From Lutimonas saemankumensis (GTDB lineage Bacteria; Bacteroidota; Bacteroidia; Flavobacteriales; Flavobacteriaceae), in assembly GCF_020171465.1 (NCBI RefSeq), contig NZ_JAIUZR010000004.1, positions 434,001 to 498,000 on the forward strand: DNA of 64,000 bases. Reading direction: 5' to 3'. This document shows positions 53,166 through 59,340 of this stretch, piece after piece. The notes under the pieces are model-generated. The model had not been told where the DNA came from. It did not search any database and saw nothing but the letters and a program-made list of their open reading frames with translations. Both the position numbers and the translations under genes were made by a program. Each line of letters starts with the position of its first letter. The stretch's first letter is position 1.

Positions 53166-53609
53166 TCAATGAACCTCAATCATTTGTTTTGGAGTAGTTT
53201 CCACTACAGGAACTTTGTTCAAAACTAATTTCAAGATACCACGTTTGTAGGTCGCATCGATTTTTTCATCTTCATTTACATTTTCTGGCAAAGTAAATGA
53301 TCTGTAAAAAGAATTGTAGTTAAACTCTCGGCGAGTGTAGTCTTTTTTCTCTTTTTTCTTCTCTTCGCTGTTTTCAGCTTCGATTTTTAACATTCCATTC
53401 TCAATACATACTTCAAAATCTTTTTTATTAAAACCTGGAGCTGCAATTTCGATATCATAAGAATCTTCAGTTTCTTTGATATTCATTGCAGGTATCCATC
53501 TGTCCTCCATAAAAAAGTCATTGGTAAGCAACCTGTCCGATCCTAAAAGATCTGAAAACATGTTGTCGTACCAAGGTAATCTGGGTCTTTTAAATTTTAC
53601 AAGAGTCAT
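53166..53609 (-). CDS. Hsp20/alpha-crystallin small heat-shock protein
   Basis: From the ATG at 53609 the protein has 147 residues: an N-terminal region with WYDNMFSDLLG, the alpha-crystallin domain (about 40-135; MNIKETEDSYDIEIAAPGF, NYNSFYRSFTLPENV, YKRGILKLVLNKV) and a short tail without a clear IxI motif. It is an ATP-independent holdase that keeps unfolding proteins soluble. A longer reading frame from 53669 exists but would run over the promoter and operator; the 53609 start (MTLVKFKRPRLPW) is preferred. Its promoter carries the tandem FNR-like sites described at 53639-53704. Confidence 0.93.
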   Translation of the reverse strand: MTLVKFKRPRLPWYDNMFSDLLGSDRLLTNDFFMEDRWIPAMNIKETEDSYDIEIAAPGFNKKDFEVCIENGMLKIEAENSEEKKKEKKDYTRREFNYNSFYRSFTLPENVNEDEKIDATYKRGILKLVLNKVPVVETTPKQMIEVH

Positions 53610-53638
53610 GACAAAACATTTTATAATTAATAACGTAT

Positions 53639-53704
53639 CAAAGCTAATCCTGAAGTTTGATTTTTGCAATGATCCAAATCAACAGGCCAAATGATTGTCG
53701 TCAA
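53639..53704 (-). promoter_or_regulatory. hsp20 promoter with tandem FNR-like operators
   Basis: Minus-strand -7 element TAGCTTTG (53646-53639) and -33 TTG (53669-53667) are separated by 20 nt. Proximal palindrome TGATccaaATCA (53670-53681, centre 53675.5) and distal TGATtgtcgTCA, i.e. TGA-N6-TCA (53692-53703, centre 53697.5), are 22 bp apart. The proximal centre lies 36.5 bp from the -7 edge at 53639, near -41.5 from a predicted start about 53634. The same layout recurs at three other promoters nearby. Confidence 0.8.
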
Positions 53705-53707
53705 AAA

Positions 53708-53735
53708 AAAAAGTTGCCCCGGAAGGCAACTTTTT
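53708..53735 (-). terminator. intrinsic terminator after the PepSY-like gene
   Basis: Arms 53708-53718 (AAAAAGTTGCC) and 53725-53735 are complementary with a 6-nt loop, and a run of about ten T follows on the minus strand. It lies 18 bp after the stop codon and abuts the distal operator of the hsp20 promoter. Confidence 0.9.
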
Positions 53736-53753
53736 CAGGTTGATAGAATCAGC

Positions 53754-54260
53754 CTATAGAAAAACACCATCTTCATCAACTTTAACTCTTATGGTTTTTT
53801 TGCCATTTTTAAGAACTAATTTGTACCGCTTATTTGTTCCTAAATCTACATCGTAATTTACCCTGTAGACATCCTTGTCGATGGACCAGCCGGGGAACCT
53901 TTCTGCCACGGCAGAGGCAACGTTGTCAGGTAAAGCCACATTCTTAAACTTTTCAATGGTATAAAGAATCTTTCCATCTCGATCATAAGCAGCAACTATT
54001 TTTCCCTCAGGGATATAGAAATAAACTCTGTAGAAATCATTGCCATCTTCGTAAAACTCTGAACTTTTTACATCAAATTTGGCAACCATATCCTCAAGAA
54101 GTTTAACCGGCACGGCTGCTTCAGTGTTGTCAACGCTGTTCAGATATTTATAATTTGTGGCACGGACCTCAACTTCCGGTAGCATGCCATCATTAACTAC
54201 CTGAGCAGATAATTGGGCGGTTAACCCAAGTGCTAATAAACCTAAAAATACTTTTTTCAT
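53754..54260 (-). CDS. exported PepSY-like domain protein
   Basis: A 168-residue protein with a signal peptide (MKKVFLGLLALGLTAQLSAQ, cleaved near residue 20), so periplasmic or secreted. Two beta-alpha-type half repeats follow, each with a Y-x-V-x-F/Y strand pattern: DFYRVYFYIPEGKIVAAYDR and then YKLVLKNGKKTIRVKVDEDG, and a VASAVAERFPGW helix between them. This resembles the PepSY-like/BLIP fold family common in Bacteroidetes, of unknown function. It has its own promoter with tandem FNR-like sites and its own terminator. Confidence 0.7.
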   Translation of the reverse strand: MKKVFLGLLALGLTAQLSAQVVNDGMLPEVEVRATNYKYLNSVDNTEAAVPVKLLEDMVAKFDVKSSEFYEDGNDFYRVYFYIPEGKIVAAYDRDGKILYTIEKFKNVALPDNVASAVAERFPGWSIDKDVYRVNYDVDLGTNKRYKLVLKNGKKTIRVKVDEDGVFL

Positions 54261-54307
54261 GATGCTTTTGGTTTTAATTAATAAATACTGTTACTCATTG
54301 CTTGAAA

Positions 54308-54373
54308 TAAAATTAATTAATGGAAGCTCCGCCCACAATGACCCCGCTCATAAGAAAGAATGATCCTAATCAG
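54308..54373 (-). promoter_or_regulatory. PepSY-like gene promoter with tandem FNR-like operators
   Basis: Minus-strand -7 element TAATTTTA (54315-54308) and -33 TTG (54338-54336), spacer 20 nt. Proximal palindrome TGAccccgcTCA (54339-54350, centre 54344.5) and distal TGATcctaATCA (54361-54372, centre 54366.5) are 22 bp apart; the proximal centre is 36.5 bp from the -7 edge. Spacing is identical to the hsp20 promoter. The predicted start is about 54303, giving a leader of about 43 nt. Confidence 0.8.
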
Positions 54374-54390
54374 TAAAATTCAAAAAAACT

Positions 54391-54428
54391 AAAAAAAAAG
54401 GAACAGGAAGTTTTTAATTTCCTGTTCC
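54391..54428 (-). terminator. strong intrinsic terminator with no gene directly upstream
   Basis: Arms 54400-54409 (GGAACAGGAA) and 54419-54428 are perfectly complementary with a 9-nt loop; nine T follow on the minus strand (A-run 54391-54399). The nearest upstream coding stop is 284 bp away, which is one reason to suspect a short non-coding transcript. Confidence 0.92.
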
Positions 54429-54626
54429 CTTAAATCAAAAATAACTTTTATACTTAAGTATACCTACGTTAAATTCCTTAGCAGATCTTAATCATCAGTT
54501 AGGTACATGTTAATCTATAAAAACCATCTTCGATTCAGAGGCTTTGTATGCCGGAACATACTCTGCCTTTTAATGCTTCATAGAATTTGTTTATAAATTA
54601 AACCCTTGATGGAATTTTAATTTAAT
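54391..54626 (-). ncRNA. predicted small RNA under tandem FNR-like control
   Basis: A transcript of about 235 nt is predicted from the promoter at 54631-54638 (start about 54626) to the terminator at 54391-54428. No reading frame above 14 codons was found. The RNA can form a hairpin at 54568-54539 (AGGC-AGA-GUAUG, loop UUCCGG, CAUAC-AAA-GCCU) besides the terminator stem. A perfect 14-bp palindrome TATACTTAAGTATA lies at 54449-54462. A 14-codon frame (54559-54515, starting MFRHTKPLNRR) overlaps the hairpin. Existence is inferred from signals; no RNA family is recognised. Confidence 0.6.
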
Positions 54627-54630
54627 AGTT

Positions 54631-54696
54631 CAAATTTAGAATCAAATCAAATACAAAACAATGATCAGAATCAATACTTTGATTGATTCTGATCAA
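54631..54696 (-). promoter_or_regulatory. promoter of the predicted small RNA with tandem FNR-like operators
   Basis: Minus-strand -7 element TAAATTTG (54638-54631) and -33 TTG (54661-54659), spacer 20 nt. Proximal palindrome TGATcagaATCA (54662-54673, centre 54667.5) and distal TTGATtctgATCAA (54683-54696, centre 54689.5) are 22 bp apart. The distal site is a perfect match to the FNR consensus TTGAT-N4-ATCAA. The proximal centre is 36.5 bp from the -7 edge. It starts 16 bp after the stop of the membrane-protein gene. Confidence 0.82.
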
Positions 54697-54711
54697 TACG
54701 GGAGTGTTTTT

Positions 54712-55101
54712 TTAATAAAGAACCCATTGATAGGCCTGATTTAGCAAAATCAATCCTACCAAAAACAATAAGAACAAAATAAATTGAAACCACTTATAAT
54801 CAATATTATTTACCCATTTAGTTGCGAATCCCGGAAAAGCAAACTGACTTATGCCTTTCATCAAACTGAACCATCCGAAAAGCGTAATAATTATCCTCCA
54901 GTCCGTTACCCAAATATTATGGGCCAAAATGTGCAGAAGCCCTATGATGATTCCCAGAATTGACAATATGATCATAAACTGGTCCTCCCTGGCAAACAGG
55001 AACATTTGCTTTATCCTTTTCGGATAAACCATGAAAAGGACAAAAAAGAGCATAAAATACCAACCCCAGAATTTTGCAAGAAATATCGATATATCCATCA
55101 T
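54712..55101 (-). CDS. four-helix membrane protein of unknown function
   Basis: The 129-residue protein is mostly hydrophobic with four predicted helices (about 12-30, 38-58, 68-86 and 103-125) and a WVTDWRIIITLFGWFSLMKG segment (in part) in the middle. It resembles small integral membrane proteins that appear beside universal stress proteins, but I cannot name a family. Its ATG directly abuts the stop of the universal stress protein gene, so the two are translated together from the promoter at 55970-56035. Confidence 0.75.
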   Translation of the reverse strand: MMDISIFLAKFWGWYFMLFFVLFMVYPKRIKQMFLFAREDQFMIILSILGIIIGLLHILAHNIWVTDWRIIITLFGWFSLMKGISQFAFPGFATKWVNNIDYKWFQFILFLLFLVGLILLNQAYQWVLY

Positions 55102-55947
55102 CTATTCTTTTTTATGATGCACCACAAATAAAGGTACCTTTGTATGAAAACTCAAGGTCCTTACTTTCGGCTTCAAAAACAGCCTTTCAAAAAATCCGTA
55201 ATGACGGCCTATGATCATGATCAAATCAATATTGGCTCTGCTCTGAACAAAGCAATTGATACCCTCTTCGAAATCATCATTAGACAGCGTGTAATACTGG
55301 TGATTAACATTTTTGAGAAAGGAATCCAGAACTCTTTTATTCTCGATCTGATCCTCTTCCAGTATATCACTTTCACTAAAATGAACAACCCGAACCGAAG
55401 ACTCAAATTTGTTGGCCAGATCCAATAAGGGTTCCAGGTCCTCTGGACTGTATCTGATCATAAAATCGGTTGGAAAAACTATTTCCTTTGGAAACTTAAA
55501 CGAATGATTTTCTGGAATTGCAATCACATTACATGCGTTTCTCATAATAACATCGCTGGTATTACTTCCTATGAATATTTCCTTGGCACCGGTAGCTCCC
55601 TTCGTCCCCATAATAATCAGCTCAATCTCTTTTTCCGAAACAACTTGATGAACCGCCAGACTAAACAAATTATAATCACTGATGGTTTCATAATTATGCT
55701 TTGGATTTTCAGGAATTTTTTCCAGAAGCCTATTCATTTCTTCAATGGAATGATCGTACATTTCTTCTTCCAGAGCCGCCAATTGGGTGGCGTTGTGCTC
55801 CATCAATTCCTCATTTGCCAAATACGGAATTTTGAAGACATTCAATACATAGAATTTACAGGGTATGTCCTTAAATAATTCTGTGGCATATTCAATCGCA
55901 TTTATAGAATTCTCAGAGAAGTCCGTAGGTAAAAGAATCTTTTTCAT
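55102..55947 (-). CDS. tandem-domain universal stress protein
   Basis: A 281-residue protein with two UspA domains: residues 1-145 (ILLPTDFSENSINAIEYATELF and the nucleotide-loop-like IMGTKGATGAKEIFIGSNTSDVI, each in part) and about 150-281 (EIVFPTDFMIRY, DLIMIIGRHYGF). The first domain retains a G-x(2)-G-x(9)-G(S/T)-type ATP-binding pattern; the second is degenerate. Such proteins rise under stationary, oxidative or low-oxygen stress. The upstream tandem FNR-like sites support control by redox or a similar signal. Confidence 0.92.
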   Translation of the reverse strand: MKKILLPTDFSENSINAIEYATELFKDIPCKFYVLNVFKIPYLANEELMEHNATQLAALEEEMYDHSIEEMNRLLEKIPENPKHNYETISDYNLFSLAVHQVVSEKEIELIIMGTKGATGAKEIFIGSNTSDVIMRNACNVIAIPENHSFKFPKEIVFPTDFMIRYSPEDLEPLLDLANKFESSVRVVHFSESDILEEDQIENKRVLDSFLKNVNHQYYTLSNDDFEEGINCFVQSRANIDLIMIIGRHYGFFERLFLKPKVRTLSFHTKVPLFVVHHKKE

Positions 55948-55969
55948 GATAATAAGTTTTAGTATGTTT

Positions 55970-56035
55970 TAAATCTATAAAAATCATGGATGCCAGTCAT
56001 TGACCCCGGTCAGCCTCAACGTTGATTTTGATCAG
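55970..56035 (-). promoter_or_regulatory. universal stress protein operon promoter with tandem FNR-like operators
   Basis: Minus-strand -7 element TAGATTTA (55977-55970); the -33 triplet at 56000-55998 reads ATG rather than TTG. Proximal palindrome TGACcccgGTCA (56001-56012, centre 56006.5) and distal TTGATtttgATCA (56022-56034, centre of the palindrome 56028.5) are 22 bp apart; the proximal centre is 36.5 bp from the -7 edge. The predicted start is about 55965, 18 nt before the ATG. Confidence 0.78.
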
Positions 56036-56058: not shown

Positions 56059-57093
56059 TTACTGAATTTTTTGGAGTCTTTCCCTGTCTTTAATTTGAAT
56101 CTCGTTTTTTTGAGTGTATATCAGGTTTTCCTCTTTAAAATCGGTCAGGGTCCTGGTCAAAGTTTCCTTGGCAATTCCCAGAAAACTGGCCAGATCGGAC
56201 CTGGAAATTTCTATCGGGCTTTGCCCTCCCCTTTTATCATGCAATTGAATAATTGCATCGGCTGTCTTTCTACGTACTGAATCATATACCAAATGCATTA
56301 GATGGTCTTTTATGAATTCCAGATCATGCGACAGCATATCAATAAAATTCAGACCTAATTCCGGATTATCCTTTATGATTTGATAGAATTCATTCTTTTG
56401 AATTTTCAATATTTTAGTGTCCTTGATGGACTCTGCGTTTTCAACATAAGGAGAACTTTCCAACAATGAAGTAAATCCGAAAAAACTTTTATCCGAATAT
56501 ATTTCAGTAATTAATTCCTTACCATCCTGATTGACCTTAAATGTTTTTACCTCCCCTTTGACAATAAAAAATATATGGTTACTTACGTTGCCTTCGCAAT
56601 AAATGGTTGATCCGGCCTTATATTCAACCGATTCCTTAAACTTAAACGCTCTTTCTATTTCATCAATCTTAAGTTTACGTGGAATCCTGTTTTCCTCATT
56701 AATATTTCTTTCATAAATCTCCTTTCTCTTCAATCGAGTGGCTACCGCGCTCAATAGTTCTGATTCTTCAAAAGGTTTTGTTATATAGTCACTTGCTCCC
56801 AGGTCCATCCCCCTTCTTATGTCTTCATGCTTGGTTTTGGCAGACATAAAAACCACCGGAATTTTTTGCAGGGACTTATTTCGCATAAGGATCTGAAGTA
56901 CACCGTAACCATCAAGGTCCGGCATTAATATATCGCAAATAATTAGATCAGGCTTAAAAAAGGAAGCCTTTTCAATACCAATCTTTCCGTTTTCAGCTGA
57001 TATGACTTCATAATTTGCCAATTGCAATATTTCAGTTGTATTTTCTCTTACAATTGTATCATCTTCAATGATTAATATCTTCTTTTTCATCAT
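56059..57093 (-). CDS. response regulator fused to a CRP/FNR-type DNA-binding protein
   Basis: The 344-residue protein has a receiver domain (1-125; D11-D12, phosphorylated D54 in CDILMPD, Lys in YITKPF), a cNMP-binding-type beta barrel (about 145-240; YKAGSTIYCEGNVSNHIFFI in part), a dimer helix, and a CRP-type helix-turn-helix (about 292-325; LASFLGIAKETLTRTL). In the recognition helix, Glu310 and Arg314 correspond to the E and R that contact G in CRP/FNR sites, and Thr313 stands where FNR has Ser212. Only two cysteines are present, so there is no FNR iron-sulfur cluster. It follows the PAS kinase gene by 25 bp and is the best candidate for binding the tandem sites nearby. Confidence 0.92.
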   Translation of the reverse strand: MMKKKILIIEDDTIVRENTTEILQLANYEVISAENGKIGIEKASFFKPDLIICDILMPDLDGYGVLQILMRNKSLQKIPVVFMSAKTKHEDIRRGMDLGASDYITKPFEESELLSAVATRLKRKEIYERNINEENRIPRKLKIDEIERAFKFKESVEYKAGSTIYCEGNVSNHIFFIVKGEVKTFKVNQDGKELITEIYSDKSFFGFTSLLESSPYVENAESIKDTKILKIQKNEFYQIIKDNPELGLNFIDMLSHDLEFIKDHLMHLVYDSVRRKTADAIIQLHDKRGGQSPIEISRSDLASFLGIAKETLTRTLTDFKEENLIYTQKNEIQIKDRERLQKIQ

Positions 57094-57118: not shown

Positions 57119-58360
57119 TTAGTCCTTAACAGTCAAAGGAAGGTTAATGAACACCTTAGTACCCTCTTTCTCTTCACTTTCAACATATATTGAGCCTTTT
57201 ACCTGTTGCAAATGCCTTTGTACAATATTGAGGCCTATTCCTGTTCCTTGAATTGGCAAAGCATTTTTTGCTCTGTAAAACCGGTCAAAAATATGCTCTT
57301 TAGCTTCGCTGGGTATTCCAATTCCCTGATCTTCGATAACAATTTTCAAATCTTTTCCCGTATTTATATTTATACTCACGATCGAGTTTTTTCCCGAATA
57401 TTTTATCGCATTAAATAGAACATTTCTTATGATGATGTCAATAACTCTTCTGTCGTGCCGAATTTCTGTATTCAGGTCGTAGGGAGAGATTACTATGCGT
57501 TGCCCTTCTTTTAATATGGCGGTAGCATCTTCAACAAGCATTTTTATTATTTCACCCAACTTGAATCTTGACAAATTCATTGGATACCCTTTTCTTTCAG
57601 AGTTTTCCAGGAATAGAAAATCGTCCAGCACATTATTTAGTTGTCCCACCAGCGACTTGATCGTATTTGTATGTTTTGAGATACGGGGGTTGGCCTGAAC
57701 CTCATTATACTTTTGAATCAGGGAAGCTGAAGTTAGTATTCCACTTAAGGGTGTTTTAAACTCATGAGAAGCAAGAGAAATAAACTTTGTTTGCATGATA
57801 TTAAGTTCCTTTTCTTTCTCCAGTGCTAATTTGGCACGATGCTCAGCAAACGATCTTTCTTTAATTTCCTCCTTGAGTTTTATATTGGAAAATTCAAGTT
57901 CAGAGATGAGGTCCATCAATTGACCTTCTTGTTCCTCTACCTCTATCTCCAGATTTTTATTCTTCTCCTTAATACGAAGTTCCTTGCGCTTTCTTATACC
58001 TATTTCAGAAATTAATGCTTTTGCATAAAATTTTCCTTCGTGTGTAAAGTAATTTAGTCCTATTTCCAAATCAAGAATATTCCCACTTTTGTGAAGACCC
58101 CTGAATTCTCTACCTTTTCCCTTTTTATATTTTCTGGGATGGTCAATAAAATTTTGAAAATAACTGAGATGAATTTTTCGTTGTTCCTCAGGAATTAAAA
58201 CGCTGATCTCTTTTCCAACTAACTCACCTTTTTCATAACCAAACATCTCCTCCACGGCAGAATTATTCATGATAATTCTCCCTTCATGATTTGCAATACA
58301 AATTCCCTCTAACAGGGAATCAAAGCAAATTTTGTAAAAAACCTCATTACTCTTTTTCAT
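57119..58360 (-). CDS. cytosolic PAS-domain sensor histidine kinase
   Basis: A 413-residue kinase without membrane segments. The PAS domain spans about 8-130 (EGICIANHEGRIIMNNSAVEEMFGYEKGELVG in part), a coiled coil about 135-190, then HisKA with His199 (SLASHEFKTPLSG) and the ATPase domain (NVLFNAIKYSG, DQGIGIPSE, GTGIGLNIV). A soluble PAS sensor suggests an intracellular signal such as redox state, a gas or a small molecule. It is first in the operon with the receiver-CRP/FNR regulator. The upstream 107 bp has no tandem FNR-like site. Confidence 0.93.
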   Translation of the reverse strand: MKKSNEVFYKICFDSLLEGICIANHEGRIIMNNSAVEEMFGYEKGELVGKEISVLIPEEQRKIHLSYFQNFIDHPRKYKKGKGREFRGLHKSGNILDLEIGLNYFTHEGKFYAKALISEIGIRKRKELRIKEKNKNLEIEVEEQEGQLMDLISELEFSNIKLKEEIKERSFAEHRAKLALEKEKELNIMQTKFISLASHEFKTPLSGILTSASLIQKYNEVQANPRISKHTNTIKSLVGQLNNVLDDFLFLENSERKGYPMNLSRFKLGEIIKMLVEDATAILKEGQRIVISPYDLNTEIRHDRRVIDIIIRNVLFNAIKYSGKNSIVSININTGKDLKIVIEDQGIGIPSEAKEHIFDRFYRAKNALPIQGTGIGLNIVQRHLQQVKGSIYVESEEKEGTKVFINLPLTVKD

Positions 58361-58467: not shown

Positions 58468-59340
58468 CTAGTGAACATATCCTATAACCTGGCCATTACG
58501 GTAAGTCATTTTATTTACGAGCCGCCCTTTTTCATCGTAGCTTTCAAATTCTCCACTCAACTTTCCGTCCTTGAAGTATCCTTTCCTTTTGAGTTTTCCG
58601 TTATCGTGGTAAATTTCAAACGGACCGTTTTCCTTCCCCTTTGAGTAATATCCCTTTCTTTTCAGATAACCGTTTTCATAATACATATGGAAGACCCCTT
58701 CCTTCTCTCCTTCATAGTACTCGGTCTTTACATAGAGCATCATATTTTCATAATAATTCTCGTAACTTCCATTTAACTGATCATCCTTGTAAAAGGCAGT
58801 TTCTTTTAAATCTCCATTCTCGTAATACTTCAATGATTCTCCCTGTCTTGAACCATTAACATATATTGACTTTGATTTTAAATTTCCATTCTGATAATAC
58901 TTCTTCTGAACTCCGTCAAACTGACCTTCCAGATGATTCCCTGTTGCTTCGATTTGCCCGTTTTTATAATACATGATAAGAGGGCCGTGGTATTTGCCCA
59001 TTTTGAAGCTTGTTTTTATTTTCAATTGGCCATTGTCATAAAACTCCTCATATTGACCGTTATATTTTCCCGCTTCGAAAGAGGTTTTTCTTCTAAGTTG
59101 TCCGTTCTCAAAATACAAAGCATAGCTGCCGTCCTTAACCCCTTCCTTTACTGAATATCTTAATTTGGGGGCCACATAATTTTCATAGACAATCCCGGTA
59201 AAAGGTTTTTCATTCGCAATTAAGATATTTTTTCCATTGACATTTCTCTCCTCTATTTCAGAAACATCTACTTTCGCTTGTCCAAATGTTATTTTTCCAT
59301 ACATTAAAACAAGTGAAAGGACAATGATTTTTCCTTTCAT
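58468..59340 (-). CDS. exported MORN-variant (YwqK-like) repeat protein
   Basis: A 290-residue protein with a signal peptide (about 1-20) and about ten tandem repeats of 22-23 residues of the form (Y/F)Y-x-N-G-x-L-x-x-K-x-x-(Y/F)-x-x-G-x-x-x-G from about residue 60 to the end. This is the MORN_2 type. YwqK-type proteins are sometimes labelled antitoxins, but in Bacteroidetes they are mostly periplasmic or surface proteins of unknown role. It has no paired small toxin gene here. Confidence 0.85.
   Translation of the reverse strand: MKGKIIVLSLVLMYGKITFGQAKVDVSEIEERNVNGKNILIANEKPFTGIVYENYVAPKLRYSVKEGVKDGSYALYFENGQLRRKTSFEAGKYNGQYEEFYDNGQLKIKTSFKMGKYHGPLIMYYKNGQIEATGNHLEGQFDGVQKKYYQNGNLKSKSIYVNGSRQGESLKYYENGDLKETAFYKDDQLNGSYENYYENMMLYVKTEYYEGEKEGVFHMYYENGYLKRKGYYSKGKENGPFEIYHDNGKLKRKGYFKDGKLSGEFESYDEKGRLVNKMTYRNGQVIGYVH

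Follow-up and report, generated by a model that had tools for sequence, protein, structure and literature searches.

Paired Crp/Fnr-type operators mark a candidate two-component, probably oxygen-responsive regulon in Lutimonas saemankumensis

Four minus-strand promoters in a 64-kb stretch of the Lutimonas saemankumensis genome (contig NZ_JAIUZR010000004.1, positions 434,001 to 498,000; hereafter the window, whose numbering is used below) share one arrangement of paired Crp/Fnr-type palindromes, and the same arrangement recurs across the genome. We consider it likely that these tandem operators are the code of a two-component, probably oxygen-responsive regulon, with a receiver-fused Crp/Fnr-type protein as reader and an adjoining FixL-like kinase as sensor. 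The evidence comprises the geometry of operators and promoters, their genome-wide and phylogenetic conservation, their co-occurrence with the regulator, protein domains, and covariation in a small RNA; from these sequence features we infer binding, phosphorylation, haem and oxygen sensing, cooperativity, activation and the function of the RNA. To our knowledge, the oxygen-responsive regulons of Bacteroidota from the environment have been charted only sparsely. The literature searched, outside which most subscription journals fell, describes neither such a paired operator in this phylum nor a FixL-like kinase partnered with a receiver-Crp/Fnr protein.

The original prediction was of four identical tandem operators at fixed spacing from a promoter element, and a check of the window sequence bears out their positions, the spacing and the element. 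All four read TGA-N6-TCA-N10-TGA-N6-TCA, which puts 22 bp between the palindrome centres, and are followed by TAnnTTTR at exactly 23 nt from the proximal palindrome. The operators, the genes behind them, the regulator and the kinase are all on the minus strand. Operator 1 (53670..53703; -7 element TAGCTTTG at 53639..53646) precedes the gene for a 147-aa Hsp20 small heat shock protein (53166..53609, PF00011), the start codon of which is 29 nt after the -7 element. Operator 2 (54339..54372; -7 element TAATTTTA at 54308..54315) precedes the gene for a 168-aa exported protein (53754..54260), which has no Pfam match and keeps its earlier name, PepSY-like. Operator 3 (54662..54695; -7 element TAAATTTG at 54631..54638) is in the promoter of a small RNA. 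Operator 4 (56001..56034; -7 element TAGATTTA at 55970..55977) heads an operon for a 281-aa universal stress protein (usp, 55102..55947, PF00582) and, as second gene, a predicted membrane protein of 129 aa (54712..55101; an open reading frame, ORF, with no Pfam match). A TTG abuts the palindrome in three of the four promoters, as had been noted, and the usp promoter has ATG there. Transcription is predicted to start near 53634, 54303, 54626 and 55965. The tandem pattern had no matches in 100 dinucleotide shuffles of the window, and these four are its only palindrome pairs less than 60 bp apart.

The pattern is strongly enriched in the source genome (G000; 3.58 Mb, 11 contigs; G and L numbers are our labels for compared genomes and loci), occurring at 26 places where a reversed-pattern control finds none. 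When the gap was varied from 0 to 30, 62 places were found in the genome, 26 at N10 and 36 across the other 30 gap lengths. These other lengths average only 1.2 places each, so the 22-bp spacing is specific (26 observed against 1.2 expected from the mean of the other gaps; Poisson P ~ 9e-26). At the fixed 23-nt distance, TAnnTTTR is perfect (6/6 letters) at 15 of the 26 places and matches in at least 5 of 6 letters at 21. Two places are inside ORFs, and both lack the promoter element. The aligned genomic sites read TGAY-N-A-N-(A)ATCAA, 8 variable bases, TTGATY-N3-RTCA, TT(G/T), 20 nt, TAAYTTTA. The inner half-sites (ATCAA, TTGAT) are better conserved than the looser outer ones (TGAY..RTCA), and thus the 34-bp element is itself a rough dyad, nearly perfect in the best cases (e.g., the 54662 operator). 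The start codon is usually 4-120 nt after the -7 element. A class II-type layout, with a site near the predicted -41.5 position beside a -33 TTG and a -7 TAnnTTTG, is present at 21 of the 26 sites (transcription starts predicted). The original prediction of operators in Crp/Fnr-type pairs, held at one class II position within a common regulon, fits this geometry. The regulon, supposed at first to be local, is not: about 21-24 tandem promoters are scattered across the whole genome.

Other Lutimonas genomes contain similar numbers of tandem sites (23 in G012, 21 in G004), again located in promoters. The four window promoters (usp, small RNA, PepSY-like, hsp20) are kept as a set in most Lutimonas genomes that hold the region. 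Operator 1 is kept in 9 species and operator 4 in 14, each with all 12 key columns invariant; operator 2 is kept in 12 species, one other genus included, and operator 3 in 14, with one half-site altered in one of them. Identity in the twelve half-site columns is 99-100%, compared with 50-73% in the spacer, the flanks and the rest of the 34-mer (9-14 species per promoter). Read as a phylogenetic footprint, this difference is evidence of selection on the half-sites and on the distance between them. The palindromes and the 22-bp spacing are kept in orthologous promoters of other genera also, as expected from the original prediction. The regulon can be read from sequence alone, given how rarely the paired operator yields a false positive, and any Lutimonas genome can be searched for a list of its members.

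The likely reader of the tandem operators is a 344-aa protein encoded at 56059..57093, adjacent to the usp operon promoter. It comprises a receiver domain (PF00072, 4e-29), a domain of the cyclic nucleotide monophosphate-binding type (PF00027, 2e-20) and a Crp helix-turn-helix (PF13545, 7e-15), the latter two placing it in the Crp/Fnr superfamily. As in response regulators, the phosphoacceptor (Asp54) and switch lysine (Lys106) are conserved, except in G003. We did not find the N-terminal [4Fe-4S] cysteine cluster of FNR in the sequence or alignment of the regulator, where only isolated Cys residues occur. The earlier description of the system as FNR-like would hold for DNA recognition only; the protein is a receiver-domain response regulator, and we assign sensing to the adjoining kinase. 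All 15 Lutimonas genomes with a full-length ortholog of the regulator have at least three tandem sites, and five of the seven without one have none, the exceptions being the incomplete assemblies G007 and G020 (Fisher p = 8e-4 for the co-occurrence). This supports the original choice of 56059-57093 as the likely regulator.

The adjoining gene upstream (57119..58360) encodes a 413-aa histidine kinase with a FixL/DosP-like haem PAS domain, our proposed oxygen sensor for the regulator. The best PDB sequence matches of the PAS domain are the oxygen sensors DosP (1e-11) and FixL (4e-8), and the top 21 PDB matches of its predicted structure are all haem PAS domains, ranked above LOV and other PAS domains. 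The model was built from a four-sequence alignment, has moderate confidence (pLDDT 79.5), and is adequate for fold ranking only. The proximal His, which we take to be the haem ligand as in DosP and FixL, is present in 17 of 18 aligned kinases, and the distal Arg, which presumably holds oxygen, in all 13 Lutimonas kinases. The protein thus has the FixL-type order of a haem-type PAS domain with both residues followed by a histidine kinase, and it probably binds haem and senses oxygen. A distant homologous kinase-regulator pair that retains the His and Arg is encoded on plasmid pHsw1 of Hymenobacter swuensis (L306), where it adjoins truncated haemoglobins and a cbb3 oxidase operon.

A haem PAS domain need not respond to oxygen alone, as such domains can also sense nitric oxide (NO) or carbon monoxide (CO), and the system may be as described with NO, CO, redox state or another haem-PAS ligand as its signal. 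CO and NO are also ligands of haem pockets of the FixL and DosP type (PDB entries), and Hsp20 and universal stress proteins are generic content for a response to respiratory inhibition. We nevertheless think a signal other than oxygen unlikely, given that the whole genus conserves the Arg by which FixL and DosP stabilise bound O2, that the Hymenobacter homolog is beside a high-affinity cbb3 oxidase, and that Lutimonas is mentioned in marine-sediment studies, one of them of a hypoxic zone (PMC4831476).

With oxygen as the signal, we predict that the kinase holds haem in its PAS domain and, when oxygen drops, phosphorylates the receiver domain of the adjoining regulator. Phosphorylation would lead two dimers of the Crp/Fnr module to bind cooperatively, side by side, on palindromes whose centres are separated by two helical turns (22 bp). 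Near -41.5, the proximal dimer would touch RNA polymerase as a class II activator on a Bacteroidota-type promoter (-33 TTG, -7 TAnnTTTG), and the distal dimer would stabilise the proximal one and sharpen the response. In this way about two dozen promoters could be turned on together, including those for Hsp20, universal stress proteins, dodecin, PepSY-like and surface LRR/InlB-like proteins and a molybdopterin oxidoreductase. The ~235-nt small RNA may then prolong the response after transcription.

Several further observations weigh against this oxygen-responsive two-component scheme. For several members of the regulon, a connection with low oxygen is not obvious. A scan of the window found no exact tandem operator belonging to the kinase-regulator operon itself. 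Tandem sites occur where no regulator was detected in G007, G020, G159, G413 and G247, which are fragmented assemblies with 61-96% estimated completeness. In G017 and G003, which both keep tandem sites, the regulator has no kinase that we could find next to it, and the G003 receiver looks degenerate. In G003 (L074, L297), the receiver has lost its acidic pocket and switch Lys, there is no adjoining kinase, and three tandem sites remain; this regulator is possibly a phosphorylation-independent derivative.

The two palindromes could alternatively have opposite roles, the regulator activating from one while the other tunes or represses. There is a precedent in rhizobial fnrN, which has a two-anaerobox promoter with opposite roles (PMC7888657). 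The stronger conservation of the inner half-sites would fit such a division, as would the degenerate distal outer half-site of two promoters (L206, L209). However, the repressing proximal site of fnrN is thought to act by steric block, whereas the proximal centre here is at predicted -41.5, the usual activating position, and identical spacing at all promoters favours one shared architecture. We judge opposite roles to be quite improbable, and prefer joint activation by two dimers.

The genome also encodes about four further proteins with a Crp-type helix-turn-helix, and one of these, rather than the receiver-fused protein, could read the tandem sites. About 40 single-site promoters with the same geometry (TGAYAWWTRTCA, 23 nt, TAnnTTTR) are present in G000 (loci L193-L222). 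The double site, described at first as a constant feature, is therefore not a general feature of class II promoters in this genome. However, the single sites have a different motif, which suggests that they belong to a second Crp/Fnr regulon sharing this class II geometry. Most single-palindrome promoters were rejected as members of the tandem regulon (other motif, no distal site); two with a degenerate distal half-site were excepted. The commonest paralog, L122, is unlikely to read the tandem sites because it is present (73-80% identity) in G008 and G010, which have none. The gene for the receiver-fused regulator, in contrast, adjoins the tandem-site cluster with the strongest conservation, and genomes that have the gene tend to have the sites. 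Thus, we find it very unlikely that another Crp/Fnr protein is the reader. L122 or another paralog probably reads the roughly 40 single-site promoters. L122 (G000:C3:1091967) is a conserved Crp/Fnr paralog that starts with a CEKC motif and has further cysteines, and it may be an FNR of the Fe-S kind that reads the single sites. An origin of the tandem pattern by chance, from low-complexity sequence or by recent duplication is refuted by the absence of matches in shuffled and reversed controls and by conservation confined to half-sites across 9-14 species, even though, around C4:70-86 kb, LRR genes and some copies of the pattern have been duplicated together, and the two ORF-internal places lack a promoter element.

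The paired operator is restricted in its distribution. Across 397 genomes of the family Flavobacteriaceae, most have 0-2 matches, and a few other genera are enriched (g66, g135, g165, g200, g233). In these, the tandem sites again serve hsp20, PepSY-like and LRR genes. The paired-site genera mostly carry a homolog of the regulator (46-56% identity), with none detected in G159, G413 and G247. We rejected a family-wide occurrence of the tandem operator, given the low counts in most genomes and the single-site islands of G022, G028, G032 and G034. Matches in G220 and G259 were rejected as operators and look like recurring coding sequence. In G022, G028, G032 and G034, which encode regulator homologs of 41-48% identity, the genes of the island (for universal stress proteins, Hsp20 and others) are under single palindromes at exactly the same 23-nt distance. 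Because the islands of these more distant relatives use single sites, the second palindrome looks like a later addition, and the tandem operator appears to be derived from a single-site state; loss in the single-site genera is the alternative. Single-site relatives and paired-site genera together form a natural before-and-after series for the regulon-wide gain of a second operator.

The original prediction also included a transcript without an ORF at the 54662 operator, and this appears to be a conserved, structured small RNA. There is no ORF downstream of the operator, and the predicted transcript of ~235 nt (54391..54627, minus strand) extends from a start near 54626 to the poly-T after an intrinsic terminator hairpin (about 54400-54429). 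Fourteen homologs align, with a 16-pair long-range helix and the terminator 95% paired. Ten pairs have changed on both sides, exceeding all 500 shuffles. A covariance model identified further copies in G006, G396, G354, G311 and G028, none of which had been used in building it; each is a few kilobases from a regulator homolog on the same contig. In G028, the homolog is under a single site, between the regulator and hsp20. The model found no copy in the Lutimonas genomes that lack the regulator and sites. Rfam has no family for this RNA, giving only one weak chance match on the operator palindrome, and we regard the RNA as a new family. A second copy was found by the model in G009 (L291:3402-4145), where the small RNA is duplicated and the tandem operator of the second copy has one half-site change. 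Genus g200 (L253:6332 in G224, L255:6120 in G396) has, between the small RNA and hsp20, a second transcript without an ORF, which is headed by a tandem operator of its own.

In mechanism the system resembles FixL-FixK, and in its regulon mycobacterial DosR. With the rhizobial FixL-FixJ-FixK and hFixL-FxkR-FixK cascades it shares a haem-type PAS kinase with conserved His and Arg, a Crp/Fnr-type final DNA-binding module, and, in the distant homologs of the Lutimonas pair, proximity to cbb3 oxidase genes. The FixK-type module reads TTGAT-N4-ATCAA-like palindromes (PMC7888657). The Lutimonas sites are TGAY..RTCA with inner ATCAA and TTGAT, compared with the TTGAT-N4-ATCAA of FNR and FixK, and their outer half-sites are looser. 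Unlike in the rhizobial cascades, the receiver and FNR-type module form one 344-aa protein, so that there is no separate FixJ that switches on fixK and no FixJ-to-FixK transcription step. Also, the operators are paired, and the targets are stress and surface genes rather than fixNOQP.

Most promoters activated by E. coli FNR have a site at about -41.5, and 89% of its direct-regulon peaks have one site (PMC3688515). Lutimonas has a similar palindrome type at a predicted -41.5 or so, but two sites at 22 bp are the rule there, and the Lutimonas regulator has a receiver, lacks the FNR-type cysteine cluster, and presumably leaves sensing to the kinase. Mycobacterial DosR/DevR binds closely packed sites cooperatively, with the proximal one overlapping the -35 element (PMC3029386, PMC5069765). 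There too, oxygen-sensing kinases and a response regulator control a heat shock protein and universal stress proteins. However, DevR is of the NarL type and reads an unrelated DNA motif, and DosS and DosT carry haem in GAF domains. The Lutimonas DNA-binding domain is of the Crp type rather than NarL/LuxR, and the likeness would reflect convergence rather than descent. Unrelated proteins would here reproduce what the tuberculosis dormancy regulon joins together: an oxygen-sensing kinase, a small heat shock protein, universal stress proteins and paired sites. Enterobacterial FnrS is a small RNA turned on by an FNR-type activator (PMC3688515), as is predicted for the Lutimonas RNA; the latter differs by description, as it is ~235 nt long, is in the gene cluster of its own regulator, and has no Rfam family. 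We are evenly divided on a fuller claim, that this is a regulon-wide code in which two Crp/Fnr dimers, exactly two helical turns from each other, are needed at every promoter, with a FixL-like kinase and receiver-FNR fusion as reader and a conserved small RNA included, that evolved in part of the Flavobacteriaceae from single-site ancestors as a separately evolved counterpart of the mycobacterial dormancy regulon.

The genes that follow the sites in G000 encode Hsp20, two universal stress proteins, dodecin and the PepSY-like exported protein, orthologs of which follow tandem operators in genus g165 and in other Lutimonas as well. Further targets are LRR and InlB-like surface proteins, an esterase, an AMP-ligase and a molybdopterin oxidoreductase. 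Stress genes are thus present, as originally proposed, but the name stress regulon does not cover the surface proteins and enzymes. In a cluster of LRR/InlB-like lipoprotein genes (L045-L046, G000:C4:66000-96000), eight tandem operators within 16 kb drive the genes, and some gene copies are duplicated together with their promoters. Elsewhere (L056:4974-5110 and L179:2491), a tandem operator with a perfect -7 element is followed by a transcript of just ~60 nt, which ends in a hairpin and T run and is conserved in G012. In the window, a MORN-repeat-variant protein (PF07661) is encoded directly upstream of the kinase gene, at 58468-59340.

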